Assembly (NCBI GenBank): GCA_026874595.1
Contig: CM049309.1
Coordinates: 73,392,426-73,456,425, forward strand
Length of the DNA stretch: 64,000 nt
DNA from: Sipunculus nudus
Taxonomy: Eukaryota > Annelida > Sipuncula > Golfingiida > Sipunculidae
Direction of reading: 5' to 3'
Positions 6,401 through 57,303 of the stretch are shown one piece after another (the stretch's first letter is position 1; each line of letters starts with the position of its first letter). A model generated the notes under the pieces. It was not told where the DNA came from. It saw only the letters and a list, made by a program, of their open reading frames with translations, and ran no database searches. A program made the position numbers and the translations under genes.

Positions 6401-6624
6401 TTAATATCTCAAAGGAACGAAGTCCTATTGACCCAATTTTTGGCATGGTAGGAGATTATGGGGACATCTAACTGTATGCCGAAATTTGGATTCATAGGTC
6501 CAACGATGTCGAAACGTGCCAGTCTTACAGACGGACAGACAGACAGACGGACGGCAAGACAGACGGACGACGGACAATGGACCATGACTATAGCTCAGAT
6601 GACTTATAGTCAGCTGAGCTAAAA
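3478..6624 (-). repeat. Old full-length reverse copy of the hairpin-headed long element
   Basis: The left end 'aaacaagggacccatgggtc' is the reverse complement of the 3' end of the copies at 26368, 49947 and 52837. The right end carries GACGGACAATGGACCATGAC and then the hairpin 'agctcagatgacttatagtcagctgagct', the reverse complement of their 5' head. Inside, the block around 'gattttggggacatctaa' and 'gatattaggcagccttgaagtg' occurs twice (about 5640-5790 and 6330-6475), matching the two-monomer structure of the young copies. The middle (about 5090-5170, 'gccaaggtaagctgcctgg') aligns loosely with 'aatccaggcagcttatggccagcc' of the young copies. Divergence is much greater than among the forward copies, so this is an older insertion. 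Open frames inside are incidental. Confidence 0.7.
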
Positions 6625-7084
6625 ACCTATGCATGTAGGTTTAACATACTACGAATAATACAATGAATGAGGCACGATACAAAAATTAAGATGCACAGTT
6701 TGAAATAACAGGGGCATACTACCTCTTGCAGTAACAAGTTATTGCACTCTTTATGAATTATACATCAAGTAGGTACTAAATGCTCTGTATTCTTACCTTC
6801 AAATAACAATGAAGGCAAAATAAGCATACACCTCAAGTTGAAACTGAATGTTAAAACAATGAAAGACACATCATCATATGAAAGAGCGACTAGTATTATC
6901 ATACACATAATATACATAAAATAATAAGATATGGAAGTCAAGCCCAGACCAGGCTGAAACAACAAATTATTTTATGCTACTGGTAGCACTCAGTCTAATA
7001 CTTTAATCTTATTATATATACATATTACGTTACTGAGTAAAGCAACTGATTAAATAGGAACCAATAGGTCTCAAAGCTCAGCTG
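6625..7084. other. AT-rich spacer between repeats
   Basis: Nothing recognisable. Short minus-strand open frames show no supporting signal. Confidence 0.4.
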
Positions 7085-11299: not shown

Positions 11300-11493
11300 G
11301 AAGCCGATCCAGGGGAGGTGTCCATCCCCCCCCCCTTCAGCCATTGCAACCTTTCTTTTTAAAAGGGGTTCAGGCCAATTTTTGTTGTCTGGAACCCCTC
11401 CCCCTTTCTGGACTTGGGGACCTTTTTTCTGGTTTTGTCATTAGTCCTCCTGGGTTGGACCCCTCCTTTTCCTAAATCCTGGATCCGCCCCTA
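11300..11493. mobile_element. Short MITE ending in GATCCAGG/CCTGGATC, possibly hAT-like
   Basis: The left end 'gaagccgatccagg' faces the right end 'cctggatccgcccc' in inverted orientation. The body is C- and T-rich, with no coding potential. The host sequence ATAACAT stands on both sides ('catcataacattg' left, 'ctataacataac' right), as expected of a 7-8 bp target-site duplication. Elements ending in 'GCGGATCCAGG' are widespread in invertebrate genomes. The hAT assignment rests only on target-site length. It sits about 25 bp from the splice donor of the minus-strand exon. Confidence 0.5.
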
Positions 11494-11519
11494 TAACATA
11501 ACAGGCCCTGTATTATTAC

Positions 11520-11852
11520 CAGCTTGTCCAACAGTTTCAGCTCAGCTTGCTGGTCAACCATCCCAAGCCACACAAGCCCTCTGGTGGAGGCAGCCATACT
11601 CTTCCAGCTCTTCATCATCTCACCCTTGTGAAAAAGCACAATCCAGGGCTCAGGCGTGTCAAACACATTTTCAGTAAAGTTCTCAGCTGTCAGGGGGAGG
11701 AAATCTCGAAACTGCTCATTAGCTGACAGGGTTGGGGTTTGGGGGTGTTTGGCTGGTGCTTCATCGAGTGCACAGACCACATGGTCATGGGCGTGGTCCA
11801 TCAGGCCTGCCACAGCAGACAAGTAAATAAGCACAGTTCTAGAAAATGGCAT
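11520..11852 (-). CDS. First coding exon of a secretory thioredoxin-fold protein (partial)
   Basis: This minus-strand exon encodes 111 codons from ATG at 11852 (A at -3) to a splice donor (G|GTAATA, GT at 11519-11518), ending exactly in phase 0. Residues about 5-18 (RTVLIYLSAVAGLM) are hydrophobic and could be a signal peptide. From about residue 53 the text reads LTAENFTENVF...EPWIVLFHKGEMMKSW, then GLVWLGMVDQQAELKLLDKL. This is the usual beta-alpha-beta start of a thioredoxin domain of the protein disulfide isomerase type. The position where such enzymes have CXXC is occupied by HKGEMMKSW, so this domain cannot do thiol-disulfide exchange in the ordinary way and may act in substrate binding. 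The rest of the domain must lie in later exons that I could not find. The frame continues past the donor for 16 codons to a stop, into intron and MITE sequence. I cannot name the gene; a DNAJC16- or TXNDC-like protein is one guess. It lies head-to-head with the candidate exon at 12248. Confidence 0.65.
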
Positions 11853-12247
11853 TTTAATATATACAGAAAAGCCGGGGCTTTGGACTTATTTCTACGCTTC
11901 TAGCAGCTGCACTTCAGCGAGGCTGGATCTGTGTTGATCGTTTTTTATGTGTCCTCCTTGTGAACCCACCACTCATGCCAAGCGTGTATGTGTATACATC
12001 CGGGTCTCCCACGTGTTTCCATGTAATCTCGACTCCCGTGAAATCGTGCTTTTATCGTTTTTATCCGTCAAAACACTTTAAAAGTTCTCCATTAAATTAC
12101 ATTTTAATAATGTTATTTTTTACTATAAGTGTAGTTTAAAAAAGCTTCAGGGCTATGACCAGAATTATGAAAATACCATGTGACCCATTGCCGCCATTTT
12201 GTAGATAGATGAGTGCAATTGTTTGTTCCGTGAAGTCAATATCTTCC
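11853..12247. promoter_or_regulatory. Putative bidirectional promoter
   Basis: About 395 bp separate the start codon of the minus-strand exon (11852) from a plus-strand candidate start codon (12248). The stretch is richer in CpG than nearly all of the window (for example 'gtgaaatcgtgcttttatcgtttttatccgtc'), as in animal CpG-type promoters. I see no convincing TATA box for either direction. A YY1-like site lies at 12190-12201. The transcription start sites are not known. Confidence 0.5.
12190..12201 (-). promoter_or_regulatory. YY1-like motif
   Basis: The plus strand reads GCCGCCATTTTG, the reverse complement of CAAAATGGCGGC. This matches the well-known core of the YY1 site (AARATGGCGGC), which in animals often lies just downstream of the start site of TATA-less promoters. 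It is 47 bp upstream of the candidate ATG at 12248, suitable for a 5' leader of the plus-strand gene. Confidence 0.5.
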
Positions 12248-15130: not shown

Positions 15131-15156
15131 TACCGTATTTATTCTAATTTGGCGAC
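15131..15156 (+). repeat. Left terminal inverted repeat of the 1.08 kb element
   Basis: TACCGTATTTATTCTAATTT then GGCGAC. It pairs with the right end at 16190-16215 with one mismatch over the first 25 bases. The outermost TA is read as the target-site duplication, so the element proper begins CCGTATTTATTC. Confidence 0.8.
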
Positions 15157-15424
15157 CACTTAAAAATAATTAATTTTCTCAGAGGTCGAGACAATAGAGG
15201 ATATTTGAAAATTATCTTCCTGCAGAATTTGGGGTGGTCGAGATTTTAGAGGCACGCGGTTTAATAACCTTCCCTAGAGCCGCAGAGCCGCTCTGACACT
15301 CGAGTGGTCATATGAATTGAGTGATAATTTGGTCGTTTATAAGTTTGTTTTGTTAGCTAAACCGTATTTCCTACAAACGGGCTTCCAACCGTCACATGAA
15401 TTACACGGTGTCCGAAAATGATTA

Positions 15425-15646
15425 ATGAAACTGAGCTCAATCACTTTACAAAATGATCACTACTTCGCGTATAGGTACGATGACATAGACGGCAACTCAT
15501 GCAACTACCAGTTGTTTCAAGTTAACCCACCAGGCGGCGATATCGGCGGGCCGAAAAGGGACAAGCAGATAACCAAGTTGGAAGAAGACTTTATAAAAAA
15601 TAACTGCCAATTATCCGATAAATTTTATTTGCATAATCTGTTATAA
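15425..15646 (+). CDS. Short open frame inside the TIR transposon, unknown product
   Basis: 73 codons from an ATG at 15425 to TAA. The product begins MKLSSITLQNDHYFAYRYDD, has a PPGGDIGGPKRDK segment and a charged helix-like ITKLEEDFIKNN. It resembles no transposase domain that I can name. Composition is more protein-like than most open frames in this window. It may be a remnant exon of the autonomous parent, or chance. The frame at 15820-16044 in the same element looks less convincing. Confidence 0.25.
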   Translation: MKLSSITLQNDHYFAYRYDDIDGNSCNYQLFQVNPPGGDIGGPKRDKQITKLEEDFIKNNCQLSDKFYLHNLL

Positions 15647-15724
15647 ATATAGGAAAGTGAAGCCGTGTAAAAATATGTACGACCGGAAATGGTCCTAGCT
15701 GGCGTGCCCTCGATCGGGCCCTGT

Positions 15725-15815
15725 TTTGTATACGCGGTCACCCATCCAAAAACTAACCGAGGTCGTTTAAACTTAACTAAGATGACCGGTCCAACTGTGT
15801 CACAGTTGTTTCACC
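15725..15815 (-). pseudogene. 5S-rRNA-like segment within the transposon
   Basis: Read on the minus strand, the DNA contains 'ttagttaag', then 'cggttag', then 'ttggatgggtgaccgcg' in the order and approximate spacing of the internal promoter of eukaryotic 5S rRNA genes (A-box GAAGTTAAG, then CGGTTAGTACTTGGATGGGTGACCGC). Upstream, 'ggaccggtcatctt' fits the 5S ACCGGT...GATCACC region. Outside this core the match is poor and the normal 3' end (CCTGGGAATACC) is not kept, so it is not a functional 5S gene. It could be a captured fragment or a 5S-derived Pol III promoter module, as in SINE3-type elements. Confidence 0.55.
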
Positions 15816-16189
15816 GCGCGTGCTTCCCCGTACTTGGTTAATATTATTGCTCATTATCCCACGTGAATCGCACACGAGACACATGCGTACCAGGAATGGT
15901 ACACGAGTTTGCTTCGTCACGGACACCCATTTGGAACTTGAACGCTTTATCATGTTTATATATTATGAAAAACGCATCTTTGTATCTTCAAAAATTTTAT
16001 TGCAAACAAGTTTGATGTGGATGCTCAGTGTAATAAGAATCTAGTCAGATACAAACTGCGGTGCCCGTGAGAGACGGAGGCATTACACCTTAACATCGTC
16101 GACAGAAAACATCGTCGGCAGTCGCGAAATTAGAGTCATTTTAGAAATTATGCTTTCAAAATATTTTTTTGGGTCGAGAAATAAGAGGG

Positions 16190-16215
16190 ATCGCCAAATT
16201 GGAATAAATACGGTA
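16190..16215 (-). repeat. Right terminal inverted repeat of the 1.08 kb element
   Basis: Plus strand TCGCCAAATTGGAATAAATA then CGGTA, the reverse complement of the left end with one mismatch. TA at 16214-16215 is the second target-site copy. Confidence 0.8.
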
Positions 16216-26345: not shown

Positions 26346-26367
26346 TGAGTACTGTAGACTTCTGTTA

Positions 26368-28986
26368 TTAGCTCAGCTGACTATAAGTCATCTGAGCTAT
26401 AGTCATGGTCCATTGTCCGTCGTCCGTCCGTCTGTCCGTCCGTCCGTCCGTCCGTCCGTCCGTAGATGTGGCATGTTTTGAAACCGTAAGACCTAGGAAT
26501 CCAAAATTCAGCATAATGTTAGATGTCCCCAAGATCTCCTACCAAGCCGAAAACTGGGTCTTTGCGACTTCATTCCTTTGAGAAATTAAGGAAAAACCTC
26601 AATTTTTTATTAAAAACCTATTTTCACACTTCAGGACTGCCTAATATCAAAACCACTCATCTGTTTTTCCTCATATTTCCTATAATTAATCCTCTATACA
26701 ATTCCTATGTACATGCCAGAAATTATGTCTGTATTATATAATTTAAAAAAGTTATGGGCCCAAACATAATGCATTTTGTAAATAATCAGGAAAGAAATTT
26801 TATCACTTAACACAAAACTTGTTAAAGCTAAGCACTTATTTTCCAGTAATATTACTTATATTAATCAAAATTAAATTGTATACCCAAAATTAGATCAAAA
26901 TCTTTTAAATTTTTTAAAATATTGGCAAAAATAAAAAATTGGTACCTTAAATTTTGCCCAACTTTGACCATGGCACGTTTTTTTGCTGTAACTGCTGTGG
27001 ATTTAATTTACACAGCATGTTTTTGTTAGCATTTCAACTGTTAACACCAAAAATTTGAAACCAGTTGATCAAAAACTGTAGATTTTATTCAAGTTTTCAA
27101 GCACCATGTCACATATTGCTAGTGTTATGCAGTTTGCTAGAGCTCAGCTCCCGAGCTTCAGTTCTAAGTTCCTTAAATTTGGCATACAGTTAGATTTCTC
27201 CAAAATCCCCTACCATGCCAAGAATTTGGTCACTAGGACTTAATTCCTTCGAGATATCAATGAAAAACTTCATTTTTCCATTAAAAACTCATTGTTACTC
27301 TTTAAGACTGCCTAATATCAAAACCACTGATCTGACTTTGATCATATATAATATACATATTTTTCTATACATTCGCTATGCACATGCCAGAAATGATGTC
27401 AGTATTGTGTATTTTTTAAGTTATGGGCCCAAACATAATGCACTTTGTAAAAAATCAAGAAATATATTTACTCCCTTAACAAGGGCATTGCTGAAGCTAG
27501 AAATTTTATTGTCAGGGATGTAACATTTTTAATCAAGATTCAATTGAATACCCAAAATTAGTTCTGAATTTTTCAAATTTTATAAGTTATTAGTATAAAT
27601 ATAAAATTAGTACCTTAAATTTTGCCCAACTGTGACCATGGCACGTTTGTTTCCTGAGAGCACTGTTGATATAATTTTCATATCATGCACACATAAGGTT
27701 TTCAGCTTTTAATTTAGAAAGCTGAAAGAAATTGGCCAAATATTGTAGCTTTTATTAATGTTTTTTATGAGACCCTGTCAGTCTTTGGCTCTCTCCAGCC
27801 CCTCTTGAGTCACCTGTATGTTGACCTTGTTGACCTTTCATCAAATTATGCACGCTTGAGGCGAGAATCCAGGCAGCTTATGGCCAGCCACAGTTGATCC
27901 AGGTGTCCAACCCAACTCATCTAGTAGTTTTAACCAACAACATAACAATAAACAATAAATTAATAAATTTTTCTTGGTTTTTAATAACAAATTAAAGAAA
28001 AATAGAAAAGGAATTTGTTAGTTTATAATAACAGGAAATTAACTTGCAGTTACTGATGATATAAGAATCTTGTATCGATGGGTAGAATGTCACATATTCC
28101 AAATAACACCATGCAGTCACCTATGGCATTTTTCAGTTCATTTTTAATGATAAAGAAGTAAATCATATTATTCATTACTAATCATTAGGGATTATATGAA
28201 GGAAATTAATGATAGACAAAGATGCAGTTGATAATATTAATCTAGATTCCTACTGTGTCTAGTGTGTACATTGATGTGAAATTAGTCCAAAATGAATTTT
28301 TTACAGTTATTTTTTAATTTAAATAAAAGCCATAAAACCAGGTACTTATGATCATTATTTAAATGTGTGAATTTTGTATATTCTGGATTCTCAAAATCAT
28401 TGTTTGGTGAAAACTGAATAAATACCAGACATGGTGCAAATACTTTGTAATTGTATTTAAATACGAATATGATTATGTACTCCATTATAAAATTTCTTGC
28501 ATAAAGAATGGGAATTCAGGTAAAAATGAAAGTATATGAATACTCGTGCAAATACTTTCAAAATGTATTCATGAATGCATTCATGAATATATTCTTTAAT
28601 ATTATTTTAATAATCATATCAGTTATATTTCATTTTAAAAAATCATATGATTCTCTTATGATTTTTAATAAAAATTATATTTGGGACAATATTTGTAATT
28701 TTTTTAATAAATAGTTAAACTCTTATATTATATGTTCTGCTTATAAGTTATATGGCCAAGTCAAAATCTGTGTGACAATAGTACTCCATTTGTTAATAAA
28801 ATAAATGAAATCAATCCTCTTCCCTGTCTCCAAAGGTACTATCAAAATCATACATAAGCTAAACAACAACAACTCATAATACAGCTTATATTTATTACCA
28901 CACAAAACCAGCATGTGCCTCATTTCTAAATAATATTTTTTATCATATATAACAGCTGAGCGTCGTGACCCATAGGTCCCTTGTTT
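26368..28986 (+). repeat. Hairpin-headed ~2.6 kb element, copy 1
   Basis: It begins with a 12 bp stem and TATAA loop (AGCTCAGCTGAC/GTCATCTGAGCT, 26370-26398), then 'tatagtcatggtccattg' and a GTCC-rich tract. It ends 'gctgagcgtcgtgacccata' then GGTCCCTTGTTT. Two related monomers follow one another: the block 'gatgtccccaagatctccta' near 26523 reappears as 'gatttctccaaaatccccta' near 27194. A degenerate head hairpin (AGCTCAGCTCCCGAGCT) at 27141 marks the second unit. The last ~1.2 kb is AT-rich and unique to the family. Copies 2 and 3 are nearly identical. No transposase, reverse transcriptase or RNA polymerase III box was seen, so it is a non-autonomous element of unknown class. Open frames at 26523, 27215, 28282 and 28508 recur in the other copies only because the DNA does. 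Confidence 0.85.
26414..26463 (+). repeat. GTCC tetranucleotide tract in copy 1
   Basis: Repeats of GTCC with a few GTC and TGT interruptions. The tract is in the same position in each family member but differs in length, so it is an internal microsatellite of the element. Confidence 0.9.
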
Positions 28987-31014
28987 TATAAATTACAACA
29001 CAGAAACAGACTTACATGGGTTTAAAATAGTTTTACTTAATATGAAACATTGTACTTTTACAGTATAGGTAATTTACATTTTACATATATTTTTGTTAAA
29101 AAAGATTTGCAAAGTACCTCCACATGAAAATGCACACAGGATAACTTGTTTTTGTTCAGGTTTTCGACATAATATATTCAGTTTCTTTAATTTATCAAAC
29201 AGAAGCACATTTCATTTATTCTGAAACTTATTTAAATAGCATGAAATTAATATTGTATATTTTCCATACAAATTCTTGAATCTATAAAGGCAGTACTGAG
29301 GTAGGCCTTTCAGACCGAGTTTGTTGTAAATTTTTGATATCTAAAATTTATGAACAGTTGAAAATGTCATAGAAGGTAAAACACCACTCAAACATCATGT
29401 TTTATAATGATGTGTACATCATATTTGTCTTGTCCATTAAAGCATATAGCAAGACTGCAGTTAAATGAGTCTCCACTCATTTCTCCAGCTACCAGTCGCA
29501 AACCTAGTCCATGCACATACTATTTTATGATTGCTTGGTTGGACCTTGGCCAAATTTAGCTTTGAATTAATTCCTGATGAAGTTCTAAATCTGATGGGAT
29601 ATACATGGAATCCATGTGAAAGGCCAAGGGAGCAAGGCTTGATCTCTTAATCATGTAATATTGGCTAATGATGGACTCCTGAGGGGGCTTATCTGTTGGT
29701 TATTGGTTATTGCCTGCAGGATTCTGATATTAATTAGTTTGACTGTAAATGTGTGGTTCTCGTGCATGGTTACACACTTGTAAAGTTTAATGATGGCAGG
29801 CTTTATGAACCTTTAATGATTATAAATGCTTTAAGAACCAGGTTTATGTCAAACACTGTGGACGAAGCGTGATGGTTTTCATGATGCCAAATTATTATTA
29901 TTGTAACTAACTGCATGTTCATTATTTGTACTATATCAGATAAATGGCAAAAGCACATTTTCTTTATTTCTGTAATGAGTAAACTTGAGGTTAATTATTG
30001 CCATTGATAACAATTTCCACACTGGCATATATACTGCGTTAGGTTGTAGTCTATATGTGTGATGTTAGGAAACATATATGGTATGATTGTTTGCTCAGTG
30101 TAAAGCCAAGACATTTACTCTTATTATCACACTATGGAGACAAATGACAATTCATTTAATCATAAATATAGTAAAAACACACTTAAATGTACGGGAAATG
30201 GAATTATGGCATTAGTTTTCTGTAATTTGCCAATTTTAGGTGTATAAACTTTCAAGGCCAGTGAAAGTCCAGATGAAAATCTTTGAGTTTCCCTTGCCTT
30301 TTTCTTGCATAAATTTGTTTTCTCTTGCATTTTAGGGGCAGCTGCAGCTGTAGGCCTTGCTGCCTCTTGTCGTTTTTAGTCTATTGGGACTAGAGATAAA
30401 GGAACTAATATAAACCCATTTTTCAAGCTTATTCTGAATAAGCTTAGGTAATAACAGATGCAGCCTATCTTGCATGTTTCTAATTATCTATTCATGAGTG
30501 GTTTTGTTTTGTATATGTTCCTGCTTTTTATGACATTGCTAATTTTTTGCGTATGTGTTCAGTGCAGGTTGGGGTGAATTCTGCACTTGGCACAATTTAT
30601 TGTGTTGTTGTGGATATAAGGCTTTTATGAGTAACCCTTTATCTAGGAAGCTGCATAATGACACATGGATCACTGTATATTTATATCATTATCTTCATCC
30701 TGTACTGCATGCAGGTCATTGTCCTGTACTCTGCAGCTGGCCTTGATAAAAGAGAAATGTCAATCAGGAGGCACTATGTTCCAGCATTGCCATTGAAATC
30801 ATTGAAAACATTCTGATTGAACTAGTGAGGCCTACTCTTTGAGTTGTGACACTAGTCATGTCAAAAACTGTGCTGCAATGGTCTTAATTACTATCAAAGT
30901 GTTAATGCTGTACACAGCAGGTAATCTGAGAAGAATGGACACAGATTAACATGTGAACGCACAAACTTGAATTCCCTCTCTCTGGTGACAGCCATTATTT
31001 CCTGCCTCTTGCAG
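28987..31014 (+). other. Presumed intron between element copy 1 and the exon at 31015
   Basis: AT-rich with no repeat boundaries noticed. The last 50 bases have a pyrimidine-rich run ending 'cctcttgcag', the acceptor of the next exon. Confidence 0.45.
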
Positions 31015-40341: not shown

Positions 40342-40690
40342 TAAGCCAAAATAATAAAAAGGTATGGTTCTCAGGCACTTTTTTTCAGAAATCAATGCGG
40401 GTGGGCGTTTTTTTTTTATTTTAATTTTTTTGGTATGTTTCGATAAAAATGTCAAATGATAAGGGAAAAGCTTGAAAAAAGCTTGAAAAGCTTTATTTTG
40501 CTAAATAAGTAAAAGCACTACAAAACAAAGGACATCGTATGGTTTTATCTTCTTGAAAGAAATATCGGAGCGGCAGCAGCTCAAAATTGGAAAGTTTTTA
40601 TTGAAAATCAAAATCAAAATTTTTGATGCGGGGGTTTAAAATTGATGCGGGCAGTGCCTGAGAACCATACCTTTAATTTTTTTTGGCCTA
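40342..40690. mobile_element. ~350 bp MITE with ~35 bp inverted ends
   Basis: The left arm 'gccaaaataataaaaaggta' then 'tggttctcaggcact' is mirrored at the right by 'agtgcctgagaaccatacct' then 'ttaattttttttggc'. The inner 21 bases (AAGGTATGGTTCTCAGGCACT) match perfectly. TA lies at both outer borders. Further in, 'aatgcgggtgggcg' and 'gatgcgggggtt' recur. No coding potential. A TA target would fit Tc1/mariner or similar, but the family is unknown. Confidence 0.7.
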
Positions 40691-41770
40691 ATGTGACCTT
40701 TCACCATGTCTTTATTCCAGAAGTTGCATATATTTAGATTAAATAAAGTGGCATTTTGTTTATTTTCTTAAATTTGAATAAAAAACTTGTAAACTGGATT
40801 TAAAAATATGTGAAATCGTATTTTGTGGAAACATACACACTGATTGATATAGGTAAAAATAAGAACTTATTAAAAGGAATGGTATTTGCAGATTATAAAT
40901 TATTCAGTAGTACTGGCAAATTTTGTCATTAAATACCACCGATTGTTTTGCTTATTTTTTGGGTAAATAAAATTCCTTAAATGTCCACTTGTCCAGCAGT
41001 CTAAATGTTTGACAAGAAGGGGTTTTTCATAGCATTTACATATTTAAAGACTGGCCTTGCTTTCAGAACAAATATTTGTAGACAGCATGAACAAGCTTTA
41101 GGGATAAAATATTTAATAATCTAAGGTATTTGATAAAAGCAGTCCTATTCAATAGCACTTTCACATAAAAATGAAGAGATATAAATAGGTCACTTTATTG
41201 ACCTTCACTTAACAGAGCACTGCCAGTAAACAGTAAACAAACTTGGTATCATTAAGTACATATATACTTAATCCTGTTATTTGCACTAGGACATGGCTGC
41301 ATATTTTAAAGTTCCTTTTTACAAGGGCCATTACCTTGGGGGACCAAATCAACAGTGTCAACATTATTGGCAGCTTTTGCAATATTTAGATGCATTTCAG
41401 GTTCATCCATTTAAATATGCATGGGTTGCCATGAAGATACCATAGACAGAAATGGTTTATTAATATTTTCAGAAATTTTCTCCAGAATAATGGTGCGTGA
41501 TGTTTTAATATTTTAAGTGAATTCCGCATATTTTTAACTGGCTTCTATCCAGGGAATATGATTGTCTGTCAATGATTTTATTCAAATACAAAAAAAAAAT
41601 CCAGGTGACTGAATGTTCATTCAGCACATATTACTTTTGTACAGTCTAGATCTCTTATTTATATATATTTATTTCAGTACCAGTAAAGAATTATATTTAT
41701 GAAGAAACTTCTTTAGAATGCTGGAGTCCAGTCTAAATGTTAATCCACATGTGATGAAAAAAGGCATTGA
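40691..41770 (+). other. Presumed intron
   Basis: AT-rich with no feature recognised. Confidence 0.4.
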
Positions 41771-42044
41771 ACAAGTTACAAAATCTGCATCTGAGAGGAG
41801 ATTGGGAAGAAAGGCAGGTGTCCTGAGAGAATAACATCATGGCTTAAAACGATGTTGTGTTGATGTGTCACAAAACTGTGGAGATTTCTTTATCATTCAC
41901 GTAGTTACAAACAAGTTACGAAATCTGCATCTGAGAGGAGATTGGGAAGAAAGGCAGGTGTCCTGAGAGAATAACATCATGGCTTAAAACGATGTTGTGT
42001 TGATGTGTCACAAAACTGTGGAGATTTCTTTATCATTCACGTAG
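41771..42044 (+). repeat. Near-perfect 140 bp tandem duplication
   Basis: The block starting 'acaagttacaaaatctgcat' (41771) is repeated from 41911 as 'acaagttacgaaatctgcat' and stays identical through 'ttatcattcacgtag' (41904 and 42044). I saw a single base difference. Two copies only. It is either a very recent duplication or an assembly artefact. Neither copy codes for protein. Confidence 0.9.
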
Positions 42045-43425: not shown

Positions 43426-45758
43426 CTGGAGTGTGTGCCAGCCCAGCTCATCTTGGGTTTCTGCAAATTCCTGGTTGCTGACTGTCCATGGTTGCCAAGG
43501 AGATGTGTAAACACACACCTTACAAATGATACTGGCTTCATATGTATGTTTGTATGATGAATATGAGCAGTGTGTATTTCTGCTAATCAGGACTATTTGA
43601 AAGGGGGGGGGGGGGGTTTATCCTTCTCACCGTTGCCCTCTGGGTTTATTATTGTGAATTCTGAAAATTTGTTGACTTTTAATGTTGTAGTTTTTGTCCT
43701 CTGCTCAAAAGTAGTGTTTTGGGTTCTTAAATTCAGTTATTTCAACATTGAGTCAGACCACAGGATAGGCATGGATATTTCCTTAAATCAGGTCCGGGGT
43801 ACAATACCAGAGCTTTCTTATATATATATATATATAAACCCAGGTCCTGCTCATGTCTGTTATTTTGGTATACAATGAATCATTTGAAATACCATAATAA
43901 AGTAATTCTGTTATATATAATTTTGACATATTACAGCTTATCAAATGCCATTCGCCTTCTTTTAAATCTGATTTTGCTGTTGTAAAAAAAATATTTTATT
44001 CATAATTCATTAAGTTCACAAAATTAGAAATCCAGGAACAAATTCTCAGTTCCAAGAATTGATCTCACCAACTGTGTTTGGCTCTGTTTATAAATAAAAC
44101 CAGTAAACCCTTCTAGTTTCACTTGATGTATTAATTTTAAAGCAGCTTATAGTTTTTCATTATGATGCATGTCATTCTTAAAAATCCAGACTTGTACTGT
44201 ACTCAAACCTTTCAAGGGCAAATTCTTAATCAAACAAATGTGCATGTTTTTTAGAAGTACTTGTGGAACATATGTGTAAGTCTGATCATGCAGTGTATTG
44301 CCAACAGAAAAACAAGATGACACAGTTATTTTGCTCTTTGCTGTCAGTGTATCTGACAAAAAATGATGAGTCTGAGATTGGTATGGCCGAAAGGTTCGTG
44401 AGGATTGCAGTATTCCGGCATCATATCAGCTGATCCAGTTTACTGTCATTGAAATAAATGTCATTGAACATAATTCGTCAGTTTTTTATGTGCTGTATCT
44501 GATACTGTGTGGCCTGAGGATTGTGTTGGCACGACAACGTAAGCCTTAGCGATTAAAGTGCAGTAAAGAAATTTAAGACTAGCCCACAGTATTTTGTTTG
44601 GATCATGAAATCCTTACATAGAGATGGAGCCTTTATGAAAGTCTGCCACCTTGAACTTAGTTTATATAGTTATTCATCTTTACATGAACTTTGCCAAACA
44701 AAGACTTTATGGAAGTTGAAGTATTAAAGAAATATAAAAAAATATATATATTTTAAAAATACACAGAAAGATTTGTTATTGTCATTCTAGCTGTCTGGAT
44801 CAGGCTTGTGGTTTGTGTGAATGACAGTAAATCATCAAGACCAGTGTTCATGTGGTGGAAGCTTAATTATTATTAATGAACCACATAGAATATTAATGCA
44901 ATTGAATCTGTTGAATGCATTAAAATATATATATATATCCCTTTCATCAGTGATCATTTATAAATATTTTTGATGATATTATGGTATTAAAGTTAAGTGA
45001 ATATTAATTTTGCAAACAATATCCAGGAACTTAGGTGCCTAAATGTCTTTGTATATTCCTGTTTTTTGGTCCACATTTTGTCTCTGACCTTTTGAACCAT
45101 AGAATAAATTTTCTTTTTAAGAACTATAAAATCACTTGTCATCAAGAACAAATTCTGTACAGTTCAATACATTCTTGGAGTGTAACTGAGAACTGTTTAT
45201 ACTCTATATATAGTTATTTACTTTTTGACTCATCTTGCATGCCTTAACAAAGTGAAACAGGATTTAAACATATTCTTTACCTGAAAATTGCATATGGCAG
45301 TTAATTCAGGAACGAGGGATTCTATTGTCTGTAGTGTTTGTTCATTGCCTGGACAGCCAGGCTGTGTATATTTGCCCATACCTGGGTTTATTCCTTTGAA
45401 AAGGTTTTTGAAGAAGGTGAGTGGCGGTGGGCGTTATACAGTTCTTAAGAGTTCAAGCAAACTTGAGTTAAGTAGCGTGTGACCTATGTAAAGAACAGTG
45501 ACACTGGCTGAGTAAATGCTAGTGTATACATGCGTGTGTGTGTATGTGCAAGAGTTGCATGACTTGCTTGGTCATATCTGGAGGTGGCTTGTAGCTACTG
45601 ACTTCAAATCTGTCTTAACTATCTTTTTCTAGTCATCTTGATTCTTTCCTTCACCTGGTAACCCTGGGTCCTACACACTTCAAATCCAATTTTCCTATAT
45701 CCATGAGCGAGAGTCTTGTTTTCTACTGCACTAATGAGTTTTCTTTCTTTCTTTCCAG
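43426..45758 (+). other. Presumed intron
   Basis: It contains a G-run near 43602-43616 and short TA runs near 43820 and 44925. No exon or transposon was recognised. The last bases form a strong polypyrimidine tract ('tttctttctttctttccag'). Confidence 0.45.
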
Positions 45759-45786
45759 TCTTGGCGATCTAACCTCAGGGACTAAG
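45759..45786 (+). CDS. Candidate 28 bp micro-exon
   Basis: A strong acceptor ('ctttctttctttccag') and a strong donor (AAG|GTATGT) bound 28 bp. Only one of three frames is open: the one needing two bases carried in. That is the phase delivered by 34978-35010, or directly by 12248 or 24431. It then reads LGDLTSGTK after a shared glycine codon and leaves phase 0. The other two frames meet TAA. This phase agreement is the best evidence that these small exons form one transcript. Confidence 0.45.
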
Positions 45787-46977
45787 GTATGTTCCCTTGC
45801 CTTTTTTTCTGGGCTGATTAGTTTTAATTCCTTTGTTTAATTTAGAGCTGTATTTAAGTCAATTAGGGCGCACATTTTTGTATCCGCTTCCCTATTTTGC
45901 ACATAAGCTATGTATTTTAATTTGTAATTGCCTATATGTTGATTTATTTTTCTCCCCTTAAACTGTGGTAATTTCAGCTTTCTACCATATATATATGCTT
46001 TCAATTCTGTAAATAAATATATCTGTGTACATATTTCCCTGTAAATGAGGAATAATGGATTGTGACCGCTGTCGGTCACCTGCACTTATCGCCATTGAGT
46101 GATTTGATGATTGAACTAAATATTTGAGGTAGGTAAGTATGTAGATCTACAACTATATGTGCGTGTTAGAAGAACCGAAGATCATAAAATAAAGCAGTGA
46201 TGCAAAGACATGGTATAATGACCAGATCACAAAATAAAATTGTGATGCTACATATATATGGTAATTATGGTACGAGGTCTACAAAATACAATATGAATAT
46301 GCAGTGTTCATGGAGTGGGGCTCACTGATCTGATAATAAAAATAAACATACCATGTATGTTGTATTAAAATCACAGGTCACAGAACAAAATGAACATACA
46401 TTGTACATCCATGTGTAATGATCGCAGGTTATAAGTAAATGAACGTTAGGAGGGACACAGATCACTAAAAAATGGAGAAACATTTAACATGGTAGTACTT
46501 TGGATTTTGGAGTATAAAAGTCTGGTTTTGATACATTCCCACGCTACAGGGAATGGTATAAACTCCACCCACATTTCCAAATAGGGCTGCTGTTGATACA
46601 TTAAAAAGAATGGGGCAATACAGAAAATAAAATTCAAAACATGCGTGATCTTCTTTATATAGTTATTTCACATGGTTTAGTTTCTTCTGAAAGAGAAACA
46701 GCACATCAGAGGTAGGTAAGTAGAGTCTTCCTAAGTGTCCATCAAGTGTATGGTGGCTCTTACATTTTCTCACCCCCTTTTTTGAGCATATATTGCGTCC
46801 TAACATTTTATTAGAACTTACATCACAAATATATGTTGGATAAATCGTTATAGAATATGACCGAACATTTTGCAGTTGTTGAGCTTAACCTCAAAATTAT
46901 CTGAACAAAGATATCTAAACAAAGAGTGAAGAAAATATATGAACAAAATACCTGAACAAAGTAACTATCTATCACAG
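45787..46977 (+). other. Presumed intron
   Basis: AT-rich, with no supported feature. Minus-strand frames of 60-80 codons are unremarkable. Confidence 0.4.
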
Positions 46978-48259
46978 CAATTGTATATGTCAAGGCCCAG
47001 ATCGTGATCTGGTCGGATCTAAGATCTGTCCAGCCCAAATTGTGATTGCAGTTCAGGCCGGCCCAAACTGCGATCGCAATCCAGGCTGGCCAGATGTTAG
47101 ATCAGTCAAGCCCAGATTGTGATCGCAGTTTAGTCCGGTCAAGAATGCAATCCTGTCTTTCTTGCTTCTACAAGATCTGTCCAGCCAAGATTGCGATCCT
47201 AAACTTGACCAGCCCATATTGTGATCCATGCTTTTACTATCACAGGAGTGAAACATTGGTTGTTTTACTAACTCATTTGTTATTGCATGGTACCATTTCC
47301 CCATAATAAATACAATTATAATAGAAAAAGGCACCTATCACTCCTTCCTCTCACAGGAGTGAAACATGGGATGGTTCAGCAACTCATTTAGTATTGCATG
47401 GTACCATGTTCATATAATAAATACAATTATAATACAAATAGGTACATGCAAAAAAGGCTGCTTGTTGAAAAAGGTAAAAAATGAAACAACTGGGCAGTTG
47501 CTAAAATGCAAAGCCCATGTAAGGCATCAATCCCAAGTAATTATTATGAACTTAACCTTGAGGCTTTCATCTAAATATTTTACTTTCAGCCATCATGTAA
47601 CTTTTAAAAGATCAATATATATTTAAAGACCTTAATACTATGTATTATATATTTGTTACCAGTAGCTGTTCTGTTTGACTCGTTATTGGATTTGATCTGA
47701 TTAATTAGTTACCTATTCATGGTGCCTGAAATCTTGTGATCTTTGTTGTGTACTATGATAGATTGACATTACTTGACATATAAGTGTGCTACTGAAGTTG
47801 CTTTTGAAATGTTTTATGTAACACAGTTTTATAAGTATGATAAAATGAATTTTGATTCAAAATGACTTTATATTTTTATGAACATTTATAAAAATGTATT
47901 TTCATTAGTTCATTGTGCCTTTTTGTTTTATAATTGTATTTATTATGGGGAAATGGTACCATGCAATACCAAATGAGTTGGTATAACATCCGATGTTTCA
48001 CTCCTGTGATAGTAAAAGCATAGATCACAATATGGGCTGGTCAAGTTTAGGATCCCAGATTGTGATCCTTAAGCAAGAAAGACAGGATCGCAATCTGGGC
48101 CGGACTAAACTGCGATCACAATCTGGGCTGGACGTATCTGAGATCTGGCCAGCCTGGATTGTGATCGCAGTTTGGGCCAACCTGAACTGCGATCGCAATT
48201 TGGGCTGGACAGATCTAACATCTGTCCAGATCACAGTCTGGGCCTTGACATATACATTG
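46978..48259. mobile_element. Foldback element with ~350 bp inverted arms
   Basis: The left arm (about 46978-47337) and right arm (about 47913-48259) are inverted copies. 'gtatatgtcaaggcccagat' opens the left arm and 'tctgggccttgacatatac' closes the right. 'gcttttactatcacaggagt' on the left answers 'actcctgtgatagtaaaagc' on the right. The outer two-thirds of each arm consists of repeated units of the type 'cccagattgtgatcgcagtt', some perfectly palindromic (TGCGATCGCA at 47069 and 48188). The central ~575 bp is AT-rich and holds no transposase. Frames at 47046-47334 and 47993-48268 read through the arms only because the units lack stops. Long arms made of short repeats resemble Foldback-type elements in general form, but I do not recognise the family. 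Confidence 0.8.
47240..47446 (+). repeat. Direct duplication at the inner end of the left foldback arm
   Basis: 'tcacaggagtgaaacattgg' at 47240 recurs as 'tcacaggagtgaaacatggg' at 47351, 111 bp on. Both continue through 'gtattgcatggtaccat' and 'ataataaatacaattataat'. With the inverted copy at about 47915-48010 the element has three versions of this block. Confidence 0.7.
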
Positions 48260-49946
48260 GTAGTTTAAAAAAAAATCAGGTTTCCAATTTTCTAAGTTGA
48301 TAATACTGGCACCCATAGGGGCTGTAATTCCTGTCCATTGCTAGTTTTATTATATTGCTTTAGAAGACAAGCCCATGACCTGGCCAAAACCCAGCTGGTC
48401 AGCAAATCTCGTGATGATGAAGTTATGAAATTGCATTCAACATTGTGTAAGGGCTTTATCCAAGCAGATGTAGATTAATTTACCCCTCAATACAAGTAAG
48501 GTTTTCACAGGTTTCCAAAGGTATGGACTCTCATGGTACCAGGGGCTTGCATGTGTGACTAGAATAACGTGAGCCGGCATGAAAGACTTAAAACACAGAA
48601 AGGTCAGGGACCCTATTTGTCGCTGTCCCAGTGACAGCACAGTAATAAACCAGTCAATGACTGACTGGAATGTCTCTGTTCAAGCCAGCTTGACCCGCCT
48701 TGCAGGCTTCCTGTATTACACATTTTGCTCCAGTTTAGAGGTTGCTTCTGTTACAGAGGGTTCTCTGGTCTTTATGTCCTCATCTGTTGGCTTCTGAGTG
48801 ACAGCAAGTGGCATCACTTTATGTTGTTACTGGAGTTGTATGATTAACTGTGTTCTTGTAAATGCTCCGTGGTATCATCAAGAGCAAACCAAATCTGGAC
48901 ACATACTGTTCAGGTGTGTATGTAGAATTTACTATCACATTAGCTTATGTTCAGCTGATGAATGTGTAACATTGACCAGTGGCCTTGTGGTAAATAAATA
49001 AATAATCATAATATAAATAATAATAAAAACTGATAATAATAGTAACAACAAAAGTTTTTAGAGAATAAAATTTTTAATTATATAGAGATATCAGGGCCTT
49101 TGGTTCTTGGGGTACAAATATCCAATGGAATGCACACATTTCTGGCTACAGGACCAGCTAGTTTCACCTTGTCATAGTCACTGACCCCTACCAGCTGCCT
49201 CAAACAAACCAGACAGCTCTGTTAACAATTCACTGACAATTGACCCATATATTTCACTATTATCAAATAATCTTATAATAACACAATTTCTAATCATATA
49301 ATGAGTTTACAATGACAAAATTAAAACGAAGGTTGTTTGAAATAACCATTTAAAATTTGATACAGTTGCCTCTCCTGGAACACTTCAAACTCAATAGGAC
49401 TCTTGTACATTTTGGCTTGAGCATTCTGGACTCTTCAAATTTTCTTCCTTTTAAAAACCCTAAGGTATATATAATCCCATCCATTTAAAAATTTAGGTGG
49501 AGAGAAATTGAAGTTTTTCCACTCTGTCTTAGTTGAGATGATGGCTTGTGCAACAGGTTTGTTGGCATCTGTTGTGCTGTGTGAGGGGTCTTGGTGGGTT
49601 TTCGTGTGGTGTCCTCTTAACACCAGCTGTTTATGGCTGGCAGCCAGGTTTAATACCCATTAACTACCACCTGCGGAGCCCTTATCCAGGGACACCAAGT
49701 TTTTATTTTTTCACCCTCTCAAGTGCACAGGCTTACTTGTAAGTTCTTGCTGGTAAGGAATAAAATGTTTTTAAAAAATATTTTAAAATAATAAATACTG
49801 CAGGTTGTTTGTTTGTATAGTGTATGCTCTTTTGTGGTCTTTTATTTTCTGGTCTGTTGATATTATAGCAGCTATGGACATTTTTCTTCCACAGAATAAA
49901 TTCGAGATGGCTCTGCACAAAATTGAAATCTTGGATATCATTGTTT
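48260..49946 (+). other. Presumed intron
   Basis: Open frames at 48579-49001 and 49548-49742 lack paired splice sites in frame. Nothing else was recognised. Confidence 0.35.
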
Positions 49947-52586
49947 TTAGCTCAGCTGACTATAAGTCATCTGAGCTATAGTCGTGGTCCATTGTCCGTC
50001 GTCCGTCCGTCTGTCCGTCCGTCCGTCCGTCCGTCCGTCCGTCCGTCCGTCCGTAGATGTGGCACGTTTTGAAACCGTAAGACCTAGGAATCCAAAATTC
50101 AGCATAATGTTAGATGTCCCCAAGATCTCCTACCAAGCCGAAAACTGGGTCTTTGCGACTTCATTCCTTTGAGAAATTAAGGAAAAACCTCAATTTTTTA
50201 TTAAAAACCTGTTTTCACACTTTAGGACTGCCTAATATCAAAACCACTCATCTGTTTTTCCTCATATTTCCTATAAATAATCCTCTATATAATTCCTATG
50301 TACATGCCAGAAATTAGGTCTGTATTATTTAATTTAAAAAAGTTATGGGCCCAAACATAATGCATTTTGTAAATAATCAGGAAAGAAATTTTATAACTTA
50401 ACACAAAACTTGTTAAAGCTAAGCACTTTTTTTCCAGTAATATTACTTTTATTAATCAAAATTAAATTGTATACCCAAAATTAGATCAAAATCTTTTAAA
50501 TTTTTAAAAATATTAGCAAAAATAAAAAATTGGTACCTTAAATTTTGCCCAACTTTGACCATGGCACGTTTTTTTGCTGTAACTGCTGTGGATTTAATTT
50601 TCACAGCATGTTTTTGTTAGCATTTCAACTGTTAACACCATAAATTTGAAACCAGTTGATCAAAAACTGTAGATTTTATTCAAGTTTTCAAGCACCATGT
50701 CACATATTGCTAGTGTTATGCAGTTTGCTAGAGCTCAGCTCCCGAGCTTCAGCTCTAAGTTCCTTAAATTTGGCATACAGTTAGATTTCTCCAAAATCCC
50801 CTACCATGCCAAGAATTTGGTCACTAGGTCACTTTGATATTCCTTCGAGATATCAATGAAAAACTTCATTTTTCCACAAAAAACCCAATGTTACACTTTA
50901 AGACTGCCTAATATCAAAACCACTGATCTGACTTTGATCATATATAATATACATATTTTTCTATACATTCACTATGCACATGCCAGATATGATGTCAGTA
51001 TTGTGTATTTTTTTTAAGTTATGGGCCCAAACATAATGCAATTTGTAAAAAATCAAGAAATATATTTACTCCCTTAACAAGGGCATTGCTGAAGCTAGAG
51101 ATCTTTTTTGTCAGGGATGTAACATTATTTAATCAAGATTCAATTGAATACCCAAAATTAGTTCTGAATTTTTCAAATTTTATAAGTTATTAGTATAAAT
51201 ATAAAATTAGTACCTTAAATTTTGCCCAACTGTGACCATGGCACGTTTGTTTCCTGTGAGCACTGTTGATATAATTTTCATATCATGCACACATAAGGAT
51301 TTCAGCTTTTTAGTTTAGAAAGCTGAAAGAAATTTGCCAAATATTGTAGCTTTTATTAATGTTTTTTATGAGACCCTGTCAGACTTTGGCTCTCTCCAGC
51401 CCCTCTTGAGTCACCTGTATGTTGACCTTGTTGACCTTTCATCAAATTATGCACGCTTGAGGGGAGAATCCAGGCAGCTTATGGCCAGCCACAGTTGATC
51501 CAGGTGTTCAGCCCAACTCATCTAGTAGTTTTAACCAACAACATAACAATAAACAATAAATTAATAAATTTTTATTGGTTTTTAATAACAAATTAAAGAA
51601 AAATAGAAAAGGAATTTGTAAGTTTATAATAACAGGAAATTAACTTGCAGTTACTGATGATATAAGAATCTTGTATCGATGGGTAGAATGTCACATATTC
51701 CAAATAACACCATGCAGTCACCTATGGCATTTTTCAGTTCATTTTTAATGATAAAGAAGTAAATCATATTATTCATTACTAATCATTAAGGAATATATGA
51801 AGGAAATTAATGATAGACAAAGATGCAGTTGATAATATTAATCTAGATTCCTACTGTGTCTAGTGTGTACATTGATGTGAAATTAGTCCAAAATGAATTT
51901 TTTTACAGTTATTTTTTAATATAAATAAAAGCCATAAAACCAGGTACTTATGATCATTATTTAAATGTGTGAATTTTGTATATTCTGGATTCTCAACATC
52001 ATTGTTTGGTGAAAACTGAATAAATACCAGACATGGTGCGAATACTTTGTAATTGTATTTAAATACGAATATGATTATGTACTCCACTATAAAACTTCTT
52101 GCATAAAGAATGGGAATTCAGGTAAAAATGAAAGTATATGAATACTCGTGCAAATACTTTCAAAATGTATTCATGAATGCATTCATGAATATATTCTTTA
52201 ATATTATTTTAATAAACATATCAGTTATATTTCATTTTAAAAAATCATATGATTCTCTTATTATTTTTAATAAAAATTATATTTGGGACAATATTTGTAA
52301 TTTTTTTAATAAATAGTTAAACTCTTATATTATATGTTCTGCTTATAAGTTATATGGCCAAGTCAAAATCTGTGTGACAGTAGTACACCATTTGTTAATA
52401 AAATAAATGAAATCAATACTCTTCCCTGTCTCCAAAGGTACTATCAAAATCATACATAAGCTAAACAACAACTCATAATACAGCTTATATTTATTACCAC
52501 ACAAAACCAGCATGTGCCTCATTTCTAAATAATATTTTTTTATCATATATAACAGCTGAGCGTCGTGACCCATAGGTCCCTTGTTT
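49947..52586 (+). repeat. Hairpin-headed ~2.6 kb element, copy 2
   Basis: It has the same head hairpin, GTCC tract, two monomers, AT-rich tail and GACCCATAGGTCCCTTGTTTT end as copy 1, with only scattered substitutions and small indels by eye. The end runs into an eight-T tract. Its nearest identical neighbour, copy 3, begins about 250 bp downstream in the same orientation. Confidence 0.88.
49995..50054 (+). repeat. GTCC tetranucleotide tract in copy 2
   Basis: About three units longer than in copy 1 and clearly longer than in copy 3, showing length change after the copies separated. An open frame over it encodes a serine/valine/arginine/proline repeat with no meaning. Confidence 0.9.
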
Positions 52587-52836
52587 TTTTTCAGATACAG
52601 ATACTTACTGGATAAATTGAAGTTTGACCCTGAATACATAAACCACACACACAGATATATACACTCACTGTGCCTGCTGTAAATAACTAACTTGTTTATT
52701 TAGTAGACCCTCTTCTGTCCATACTAGGTGCCAATCTTCCATCACACTTAAGTATCACCACTTAGTAAAACATTGTAATTTCCCATCCCTTTAGTTGCAC
52801 TGTTTGTGTGGTTCTTATAAAAATATCACATAATTT

Positions 52837-55442
52837 TTAGCTCAGCTGACTATAAGTCATCTGAGCTATAGTCGTGGTCCATTGTCCGTCATCCGTCCGT
52901 CTGTCCGTCCGTCCGTCCGTTGTCCGTAGATGTGGCACATTTTGAAACCGTAAGACCTAGGAATCCAAAATTCAGCATAATGTTAGATGTCCCCAAGATC
53001 TCCTACCAAGCCGAAAACTGGGTCTTTGCGACTTCATTCCTTTGAGAAATTAAGGAAAAACCTCAATTTTTTATTAAAAACCTATTTTCACACTTCAGGA
53101 CTGCCTAATATCAAAACCACTCATCTGTTTTTCCTCATATTTCCTACAAATAATCCTCTATATGATTCCTATGTACATGCCAGAAATTAGGTCTGTATTA
53201 TATAATATAAAAAAGTTATGGGCCCAAACATAATGCATTTTGTAAATAATCAGGAAAGAAATTTTATCACTTAACACAAAACTTGTTAAAGCTAAGCACT
53301 TTTTTTCCAGTATTATTACTTTTATCAAAATTAAATTGTATAACCAAAATTAGAACAAAATCTTTTAAAATTTTTAAAATATTAGCAAAAATAAAAAATT
53401 GGTACCTTAAATTTTGCCCAACTTTGACCATGGCACGTTTTTTTCCTGTAACTGCTGTGGATTTAATTTTCAAAGCATGTTTTTGTTAGCATTTCAACTG
53501 TTAACACCAAAAATTTGTAACTAGTTGATCAAAAACTGTAGATTTTATTCAAGTTTTCAAGCACCATGTCACATATTGCTAGTGTTATGCAGTTTGCTAG
53601 AGCTCAGCTCCCGAGCTTCAGCTCTAAGTTCCTTAAATTCGGCATACAGTTAGATGTCTCCAAAATCCCCTACCATGCCAAGAATTTGGTCACTAGGACT
53701 TAATACCGTCGAGATATTAATGAAAAACTTAATTTTTCCATTAAAAACCCATTGTTACACTTAAGACTGCCTAATATCAAAACCACTGATCTGACTTTAA
53801 TCATAAATAAAATACATATTTTTCATTTTTCTATTGTGTAAATGATGTCAGTATTGCGTAATTGTTTTAAGTTATGGGCCCAAACATAATGCACTTTGTA
53901 AAAAATCAAGAAATATATTTACTCCCTTAACAAGGGCATTGCTGAAGCTAGAGATTTTTTTGTCAGGGATGTAACATTATTTAATCAAGATTCAATTGAA
54001 TACCCAAAATTAGTTCTGAATTTTTCAAATTTTATAAGTTATTAGTATAAATATAAAATTAGTACCTTAAATTTTGCCCAACTGTGACCATGGCACATTT
54101 GTTTCCCGTGAGCACTGTTGATATAATTTTCATATCATGCACACATAAGGATTTCAGCTTTTTATTTTAGAAAGCTGAAAGAAATTGGCCAAAAATTGTA
54201 GCTTTTATTAATGTTTTTTATGAGACCCTGTCAGACTTTGGCTCTCTCCAGCCCCTCTTGAGTCACCTGTATGTTGACCTTGTTGACCTTTCATCAAATT
54301 ATGCAGGCTTGAGGCGAGAATCCAGGGAGCGTATGGCCAGCCACAGTTGATCCAGGTGTCCAACCCAACTCATCTAGTAGTTTTAACCAACAACATAACA
54401 ATAAACAATAAATTAATAAATTTTTATTGGTGTTTAATAACAAATTAAAGAAAAATAGAAAAGGAATTTGTAAGTTTATATTAACAGGAAATTGACTTGC
54501 AGTTACTGATGATATAAGAATCTTGTATCGATGGGTAGAATGTCACATATTTCAAATAACACCATGCAGTCACCTATGGCATTTTTCAGTTCAATTTTAA
54601 TAATAAAGAAGTAAATCATATTATTCATTACTAATCATTAGGGATCATATGAAGGAAATTAATGATAGACAAAGATGAAGTTGATAATATTAATCTAGAT
54701 TCCTACTGTGTCCAGTGTGTACATTGATGTGAAATTAGTCCAAAATGAATTTTTTACAGTTATTTTTTAATATAAATAAAAGCCATAAAACCAGGTACTT
54801 ATGATCATTATTTAAATGTGTGAATTTTGTATATTCTGGATTCTCAACATCATTGTTTGGTGAAAACTAAATAAATGCCAGACATGGTGCGAATACTGTG
54901 TGATTGTATTTAAATACGAATATGATTATGTACTCCATTATAAAACTTCTTGCATAAAGAATGGGAATTCAGGTAAAAATGAAAGTATATGAATACTCGT
55001 GCAAATACTTTCAAAATGTATTCGTGAATGCATTCATGAATATATTCTTTAATATTATTTTAATAATCATATCAGTTATATTTCATTTTAAAAAATCATA
55101 TGATTCTCATATTATTTTTAATGAAAATTATATTTGGGACAATATTTGTAATTATTTTTAATAAATAGTTAAACTCTTATATTATATGTTCTGCTTATAA
55201 GTTATATGGCCAAGTCAAAATCTGTGTGACAATAGTACTCCCAATTGTTAATAAAATAAATGAAATCAATCCTCTTCGCTGTCTCCAAAGGTACTATCAA
55301 AATCATACATAAGCTAAACAACAACAACTCATAATACAGCTTATATTTATTACACACAAAACAAGCATGTGCCTCATTTCTAAATAATATTTTTTTATCA
55401 TATATAACAGCTGAGCGTCGTGACCCATAGGTCCCTTGTTTT
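52837..55442 (+). repeat. Hairpin-headed ~2.6 kb element, copy 3
   Basis: Same structure as copies 1 and 2, with a short GTCC tract (52885-52927) and small deletions, for example near 53820 where 'catacattcactatgcacatgccag' is shortened. It ends at GGTCCCTTGTTT, followed by a long T-run and G-run. Confidence 0.88.
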
Positions 55443-55466: not shown

Positions 55467-56194
55467 CAGGGGGATCTATATAATTGATTACAAATTGATC
55501 ACACATGACACATTGAAAATTTTGTCTGATTCAGATATATACATATGGATGATTCAGGTCAGGTGTTCACTGCCTAGTTGTTTATTCATTTTTACATTGC
55601 CGATACTTTAATACTTTGTCCTAAGTAGAAACAAGTACTGTGGTTGACAGACAGTTTGTACATATACTGTCAGCAATGGCTATACATGTTTTTGTTAACA
55701 GTGCATATTCAGTAGGTATATAGACTACTAGTGTCTGGAAAAATTATTCACCATGAAGAACATCTTGGATAAAATAACATTAGAAAGAGAAATACCAGAG
55801 AAGGTCACCAGACAAAATAGCGTAATCAGTGATTGTTTGCGGTTACTGGCTCTGTTCCCATGAGCAACCTCATTTGTTCATACACAGATAATTCTTAAAT
55901 GTTAATAGTGATATAAATTTTTTGTCGTTGCGCCTGAAAAATTCCTGTTCCATTTTAGTGACTTCATGGACGTTGACAGCATAAAGTGCCTGAACATAAT
56001 ATTATTTAATGCTATGGGAAGATCCTTGACCCCTTGCACCTGATCATTTAAATTCCAAATAGTTTTGACACAGGTGACATTTTTCATTGTGGCCTGGCCT
56101 TGATATTTCTGTAGAGGCAGAAAAAACATACAATAGACAAAAACTGCAGCAACCAGTTTGTGTTTGTGTTTGTTTAGAGGGTAAGCTGGTATTT
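55467..56194 (+). other. Spacer between element copies 3 and 4
   Basis: Unique-looking AT-rich DNA. No supported gene. Confidence 0.4.
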
Positions 56195-57303
56195 TTAGCT
56201 CAGCTGACTGTGAGTCATCTGAGCTATAGTCATGGTCCTTTGTCCGTCATCTGGCTGTCAGGCCGTTAACAGGGCACGTTTTGAAACCGTCGAATCCAAA
56301 ATTTTGCATACAGTTAGATGTCCCCAAAATCTCCTACCATATTGAAAATTGGGTCACTTAGACCTCGTTCCTTTGAGATATTAAGGAAAAACTTCTGTTT
56401 TCCATTAAAAACTCATTGTTACATTTCAAGACTGCCTAATATCAAAACCACTGATCTGAATTTGATCATAGTAAATATTCATATTCTTCCATACATTTCC
56501 TATGTACATTAAAAAAATTTGATCAGTATTGTGTAATTTTACGAAGTTATGGGCCCAAACATAATGCACCTTGTGAAAAATTAGGTAATATATTTACTCA
56601 CATAACATAAGAATTGCTCCCCCCCCCCCCCTTTTTGTTGACAGGACTGTTCTTTTAATAAGATGAATCTTATAACTTCACATTTTTTTCCAGCAGCGAG
56701 CGGTAACAACAGAGACCCCTCCCCCACTTACCCCTTCAATACACAGGACTAATAGACAAGAGGAATCTTATAATTTTAATGTTAAATTAATTCTTTTTGT
56801 TGAGACTTGGACAGTTTTGATTTTTTAAGAAAAAAATGTTCAGGAATTTAATTCTAATATTCAAATGTGATAAAATATTAAGATCTAATGTGAGAGCTAA
56901 GTGACAAGATTTAAGAAACTATAAATACTTTGTAGCATTTCATTCATATCTCATTAAGTTGGCCAAGCCTAGGTGTAAATATCACTGTTAAACTTAGTTT
57001 TTAAATCAGAAATATTGGTCAAACTTTGTTGGATAAATTTTTAACTCATATGGCCATATTTAACTTTTGAAAACTTAATTACCTTCACACAGAACTTGTT
57101 TATGAAATGTAACTTTTATATAACACTTACCTTAGGCCCATTTTTCCCTTGGTGCATCATTAAATGGTTTTAGGCTACAGGTTTCATTTATTACACAAGA
57201 CATATGCTTGAGCTCATGTAAAACCAAAAGAAATAAAAATATTTTGCAGTTGCTAATATTTTCCAAATTCAGATTAGCGATGTGACCCATGGGTCCCTTG
57301 TTT
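56195..57303 (+). repeat. Shorter, single-monomer relative of the hairpin-headed element
   Basis: The head 'ttttagctcagctgactgtg' then 'agtcatctgagctatagtcatgg' and the tail 'gatgtgacccatgggtcccttgttt' define a 1.1 kb member. It has one copy of the 'gatgtccccaaaatctccta' monomer instead of two and lacks the long GTCC tract. It is more diverged. The terminal GACCCATGGGTC is a perfect palindrome here. C-runs near 56617 and 56707 interrupt the body. Confidence 0.75.

Follow-up and report, generated by a model that had tools for sequence, protein, structure and literature searches.

A probable foldback-type transposon copy with alternating palindromic half-units in a window of Sipunculus nudus DNA

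A stretch of 1.28 kb (46982-48256) in a 64-kb, AT-rich and CpG-poor region of the Sipunculus nudus genome, referred to here as the window, consists of two long arms that face each other across 580 nt. This raises the question whether such a structure is a transposon or an array that was inverted and duplicated in place. Several features of the foldback class are present, namely long inverted arms around a middle part, internally repetitive arms and an inner domain distinct from the outer repeats. Judged by analogy with described elements, the locus is probably a single aged copy of a non-autonomous, non-coding DNA transposon of the foldback type, now decaying.

The arms (Table 1) align with 87.3% identity over 353 columns including gaps (blastn of 46940-48300 against the window, E about 2e-122), and 311 of the 341 ungapped positions are identical while 30 differ. 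When the local alignment is extended through a one-base gap to 46978 and 48259, 314 of 344 positions match, with 15 transitions and 15 transversions. The main misalignment is found at about 47168-47191 versus 48058-48070, where the right arm has an oddly oriented partial unit. These arms are longer than those of any other inverted repeat whose arms lie within 3 kb of each other: in a survey of the window with an ungapped method, the longest one outside the element among the best 25 of 29 pairs has arms of 43 nt and lies in a TA repeat.

Table 1. Coordinates of the parts of the element within the window.
Feature	Position	Strand	Remarks
Left arm (terminal inverted repeat)	46982-47334	+	353 nt; pairs with 48256-47915
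Left terminus GTATATGTCAAGGCCCAGA	46983-47001	+	Identical to right terminus; boundary within a few bases
Left outer domain	47021-47136	+	Three 39-bp half-units: 47021-47059 (+), 47060-47098 (-), 47098-47136 (+)
Two more partial 26-bp units, left arm	47172-47225	+	47172-47197, no clear mirror; 47200-47225
Inner block A, left arm	47234-47334	+	101 bp
Inner block A2, extra direct copy toward loop	47345-47445	+	Period 111
Central loop	47447-47914		468 bp, 28% GC
Right arm (terminal inverted repeat)	47915-48256	-	342 nt
Inner block B, right arm	47915-48015	-	101 bp
Partial unit, right arm	48024-48049	-	Mirrors 47200-47225, 26/26 identical
Partial unit, right arm	48043-48068	+	Left-arm mirror would read -; arms misalign here
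Right outer domain	48102-48217	-	Mirror of the three half-units: 48179-48217, 48140-48178, 48102-48140
Right terminus, same 19 bases GTATATGTCAAGGCCCAGA	48237-48255	-	From arm alignment

In its outer part each arm carries a short array of 39-bp half-units. Unlike in purely tandem direct arrays, their orientation alternates, so that neighbours form palindromes of 77-78 bp. Internal periods of 28 and 77 bp are found in the arms. The motif CCAGATTGYGATCGCAGTT occurs at six sites in the window when up to three mismatches are allowed, all of them within the arms (mean 0.02 in shuffled sequences, none of 100 reaching six), and TGCGATCGCA has two exact sites in the window, 47069 and 48188. Folded as single DNA strands, the four half-unit pairs give z = -12.2 (palindrome 48140-48217), -5.6 (palindrome 47021-47098), -11.0 and -6.6, and for each of them none of 200 shuffles is as good. 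Over 78 bases the two palindromes are self-complementary at 60 and 58 positions, which is equalled elsewhere in the window only by a TA microsatellite near 42.7 kb. The partial units fold less well: 47172-47225 is no better than its shuffles (z = +0.9, 168/200 as good) and 48023-48085 folds weakly (z = -3.3, 1/200). The right-arm unit at 48043-48068 appears to be a flipped unit, the flip having presumably taken place at a small palindrome.

The arms are separated by an additional inner block, A2, and a unique loop. Block identities are 93% for A-B, 83% for A-A2 and 85% for A2-B. The anatomy proposed in the initial annotation, with facing arms of about 350 bp made of repeated and partly palindromic units, hairpins nested inside the arms and a third copy of the inner block toward the loop, thus agrees with what the alignments and folding give.

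Both termini carry the same 19 bases, and the identity on both sides extends to TGTATATGTCAAGGCCCAGA. A 17-base end motif with at most three mismatches is found only at these two termini in the window, which alone is not beyond chance because two or more sites appear in 3 of 100 shuffles. Depending on the register, the flanks repeat ATT (3 bp) or TATA/ATAT, the longest exact repeat being 4 bp when exact matches are scored over the 12 registers listed. A 3-bp ATT duplication has, by our own estimate, a chance of about 1 in 64 per register, and TATA/ATAT is palindromic and follows from the inverted repeat, so that it is uninformative as a target-site duplication. A target duplication of 7-10 bp, as in Galileo, Tetris or Tm1, was not found among the exact matches over these registers, although one may be hidden if the flanks have decayed.

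The term foldback element, as used in the initial annotation, is the best supported reading when the anatomy is compared with Tetris, Galileo and Tm1, but it applies to one known copy with an ambiguous target duplication, and from a single copy a transposon origin is likely but unproven. The same observations bear on an inverted duplication in place of a short palindromic satellite-like array, without transposition, which we consider unlikely. The window holds no further copy of the element (blastn, E up to 0.01), which counts against the foldback reading and is what a local duplication would give; the unclear target duplication points the same way, and the differences between the arms count in favour of a local duplication. 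On the other hand, the two outer ends of the match fall at the same bases and the array has the same order in both arms, which supports the foldback reading, and both arms share a layering of outer and inner domains like that of a published foldback element, Tetris (PMC4079207).

Two further explanations concern the loop and the transcript. The element might have arisen by deletion from a larger, autonomous transposon whose inverted repeats were long and repetitive, with loss of the transposase gene from the loop. Such an origin falls within the foldback reading, and the chance we give it, which is rather less than even, overlaps with that of the foldback reading as a whole. Galileo offers a precedent: copies made of long inverted repeats were all that was known of it until its transposase was discovered (PMC3573991). 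The 468-bp loop, however, shows no sign of a transposase domain. Translated through stops in six frames, the region 44500-49499 gave no Pfam match at E up to 0.1, which fits an element without coding capacity, and no transposase that would assign a superfamily. Since non-autonomous copies are without transposase anyway, this result speaks neither for nor against membership in the P or Mutator superfamilies. A locus kept for the production of small RNA from a hairpin, whatever its origin, seems very improbable. Strong folding of a transcript is predicted for the outer domains (left z = -7.5, right z = -11.2, 0/200 shuffles each), but any foldback element would be expected to fold in this way because of its inverted repeats, and no Rfam family reached its gathering score anywhere in the window. 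Cruciforms and RNA interference are physically possible given the computed folding.

If the element is a foldback transposon, it would have been mobilised in trans by a transposase that is encoded elsewhere and recognised its matching GTATATGTCAAGGCCCAGA ends. The small palindromes may have let the arms grow through template switching or slippage, and the additional inner block may be left over from unequal exchange. Point mutations, some of them at CpG, would later have worn the copy down. Traces of such growth can be read in three features: the half-units that alternate, a unit of the right arm that appears to be flipped, and the single surplus inner block. A more far-reaching proposal, to which we give a rather small chance, is a distinct foldback family with an outer domain of alternating half-units in which each neighbouring pair is a 77-bp hairpin. 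In such a family the palindromes would not be passive tandem repeats: template switching at the hairpins would make the arms grow and keep them alike.

The initial annotation also suggested conversion between the arms, which is possible but not proven. Mirrored units are 87% (L1-R1), 92% (L2-R2), 90% (L3-R3) and 100% (L5-R5) identical, whereas non-mirror pairs, full or partial, range over 65-82%, apart from pairs with L4, a 26-bp unit present only in the left arm. L4 resembles units 1 to 3 in both arms at 81-88% identity, and the mirror and non-mirror ranges touch because it is 88% like L1 and R1. The greater likeness of mirrored units, L4 excepted, means either that the array predates the inversion of the arms or that whole arms have been homogenised, and the former fits equally well. 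The closer match of blocks A and B than of either with A2 would likewise be expected if the arms were homogenised, or if they were inverted after a tandem duplication.

In a comparison of the three blocks, 12 changes fall on the branch of A2, 4 on that of A and 2 on that of B, with one three-state site; the excess on A2 has a binomial p of 0.013 against B and 0.077 against A. As A2 is more distant from A and B than these are from each other, it is, under a clock, not a recent copy of A. It may either be older, with a right-arm partner that was lost, or conversion may have kept A and B alike; three block sequences have no topology that could separate an older tandem duplicate from arm conversion.

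The CpG content does not bear out the suggestion that surviving CpG sites point to a recent arrival, and is rejected as a sign of it. The outer domains have 8 and 7 CpG (observed/expected 0.55 and 0.49, against 0.30 in the window), together 15 where 8.7 are expected at the window rate (Poisson p = 0.032). This modest excess is equalled elsewhere in the window: of 1244 further overlapping 245-bp windows, 73 have at least 7 CpG and 162 reach an observed/expected ratio of 0.49 or more. Seven of the 12 CpG positions in the six TGYGATCRCA cores are intact, and 8 of the 30 differences between the arms are of the CpG versus TpG/CpA type. The pattern looks like decay in place.

Searches outside the window covered plasmid, phage, prokaryotic and viral collections, which are an unlikely place for an animal transposon, and their negative results carry little weight. 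No blastn match was found in plasmids or phages at E up to 1e-5, and a 22-base pattern of the unit, with two sites in the window, was found in none of the bacterial or archaeal genome contigs. The inner-block pattern was found in no viral contig; a slightly different spelling fits the three inner blocks of the window. Viral contigs contain 34 stretches with GATTGYGATCRCAGTT and 18 with TGTCAAGGCCCAGATY. The element gave 127 blastn rows against these 52 stretches at E up to 10, the longest match being 32 bases at 78% and the lowest E 0.003, and the whole window gave none at E up to 0.001; the viral matches were judged to be chance. The initial annotation knew of no named family with this unit; text searches of PMC papers with pieces of the unit and of the ends found no paper that deals with repeats, judged by title and abstract, Repbase and Dfam being outside their scope.

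The window has only ten stop-to-stop frames of at least 110 amino acids. Comparison of eight of these with Pfam gave two matches, both below the cut-off of that database, and six-frame translations of the regions 60-64 kb and 10-15 kb matched no Pfam family at E up to 0.05. One open frame, 11472-11885 on the reverse strand, has no Pfam match; phmmer gave weak matches, to the thioredoxin-like domains of protein disulfide isomerases (best E 0.033) and to DNAJC10 (E 0.074), and the frame presumably resembles part of a DnaJ/thioredoxin protein.

Other repeats are also present in the window. A 2.6-kb family has three copies that are 95-97% identical (26363-28987, 49942-52587 and 52834-55442), an inverted piece (5342-6626) and a partial one (56192-56618); two of the copies lie in tandem 1.7 kb to the right of the foldback element. 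In each of the three copies a GTCC microsatellite follows TTAGCTCAGCTGA or TAGCTCAGCTGA at one end, and CAGCTGAGC lies close to the opposite end; the subterminal motifs are short and inverted, and there are internal repeats of about 600 bp that have diverged. Oyster Helentron derivatives are described as having such subterminal motifs and a GTCC microsatellite as well, and by this analogy the family looks like non-autonomous Helentrons (HINE) of the oyster kind (PMC7492417). At 41770-42044 there is a 140-bp tandem duplication, probably recent because its copies are 99% identical. Inverted ends of 30 nt, TACCGTATTTATTCTAATTTGGCGACCACT, lie 1 kb apart at 15131-16215 with 90% complementarity and possibly belong to a separate small DNA transposon, and a MITE-like 38-nt inverted repeat, 87% complementary with arms 273 nt apart, is found at 40342-40690.

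Foldback elements matter beyond this locus, since Galileo has given rise to natural chromosomal inversions (PMC3573991). As a single copy, the present element is an ordinary repeat that is likely to derive from a transposon. If copies with the same ends exist, they would constitute a foldback family without a name in the literature searched, suited to asking how long inverted arms grow.

The FB elements of Drosophila and the TU elements of sea urchins have an outer repeat domain, an inner domain and a loop in common with the element. They have target duplications of 8-9 bp and direct subrepeats, whereas the subrepeats of the element alternate.

Among elements with published descriptions, Tm1, a Mutator/Foldback element of root-knot nematodes, has composite inverted arms of short repeats, and its members without coding capacity are about 1 kb long (PMC3169594). 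The two arms of one Tm1 element are on average 93.15% identical, and target duplications of 8-10 bp were reported for 45 of 53 elements. Unlike the present arms, those of Tm1 are mostly tandem repeats of 13-15 bp, and the end motifs are different. Galileo, of the P-element superfamily, likewise has long, internally repetitive inverted arms, and their length shifts through tandem repeats and recruitment of inner sequence (PMC3573991). It differs in its known transposase and 7-bp target duplications, neither of which is seen here. The same paper regards long inverted arms as a trait that converged in different superfamilies, so that anatomy alone cannot assign the element to one of them. Tetris of Drosophila virilis has arms of up to 1,735 bp with tandem repeats of about 220 bp, an extra flanking domain and target duplications of 8-10 bp, while the element has alternating units of about 39 bp and no 8-10-bp duplication was seen (PMC4079207). 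In its general plan, however, Tetris is the same: it is non-autonomous, its arms combine an inner domain with an outer one of tandem repeats, and its middle domain has no apparent coding capacity.
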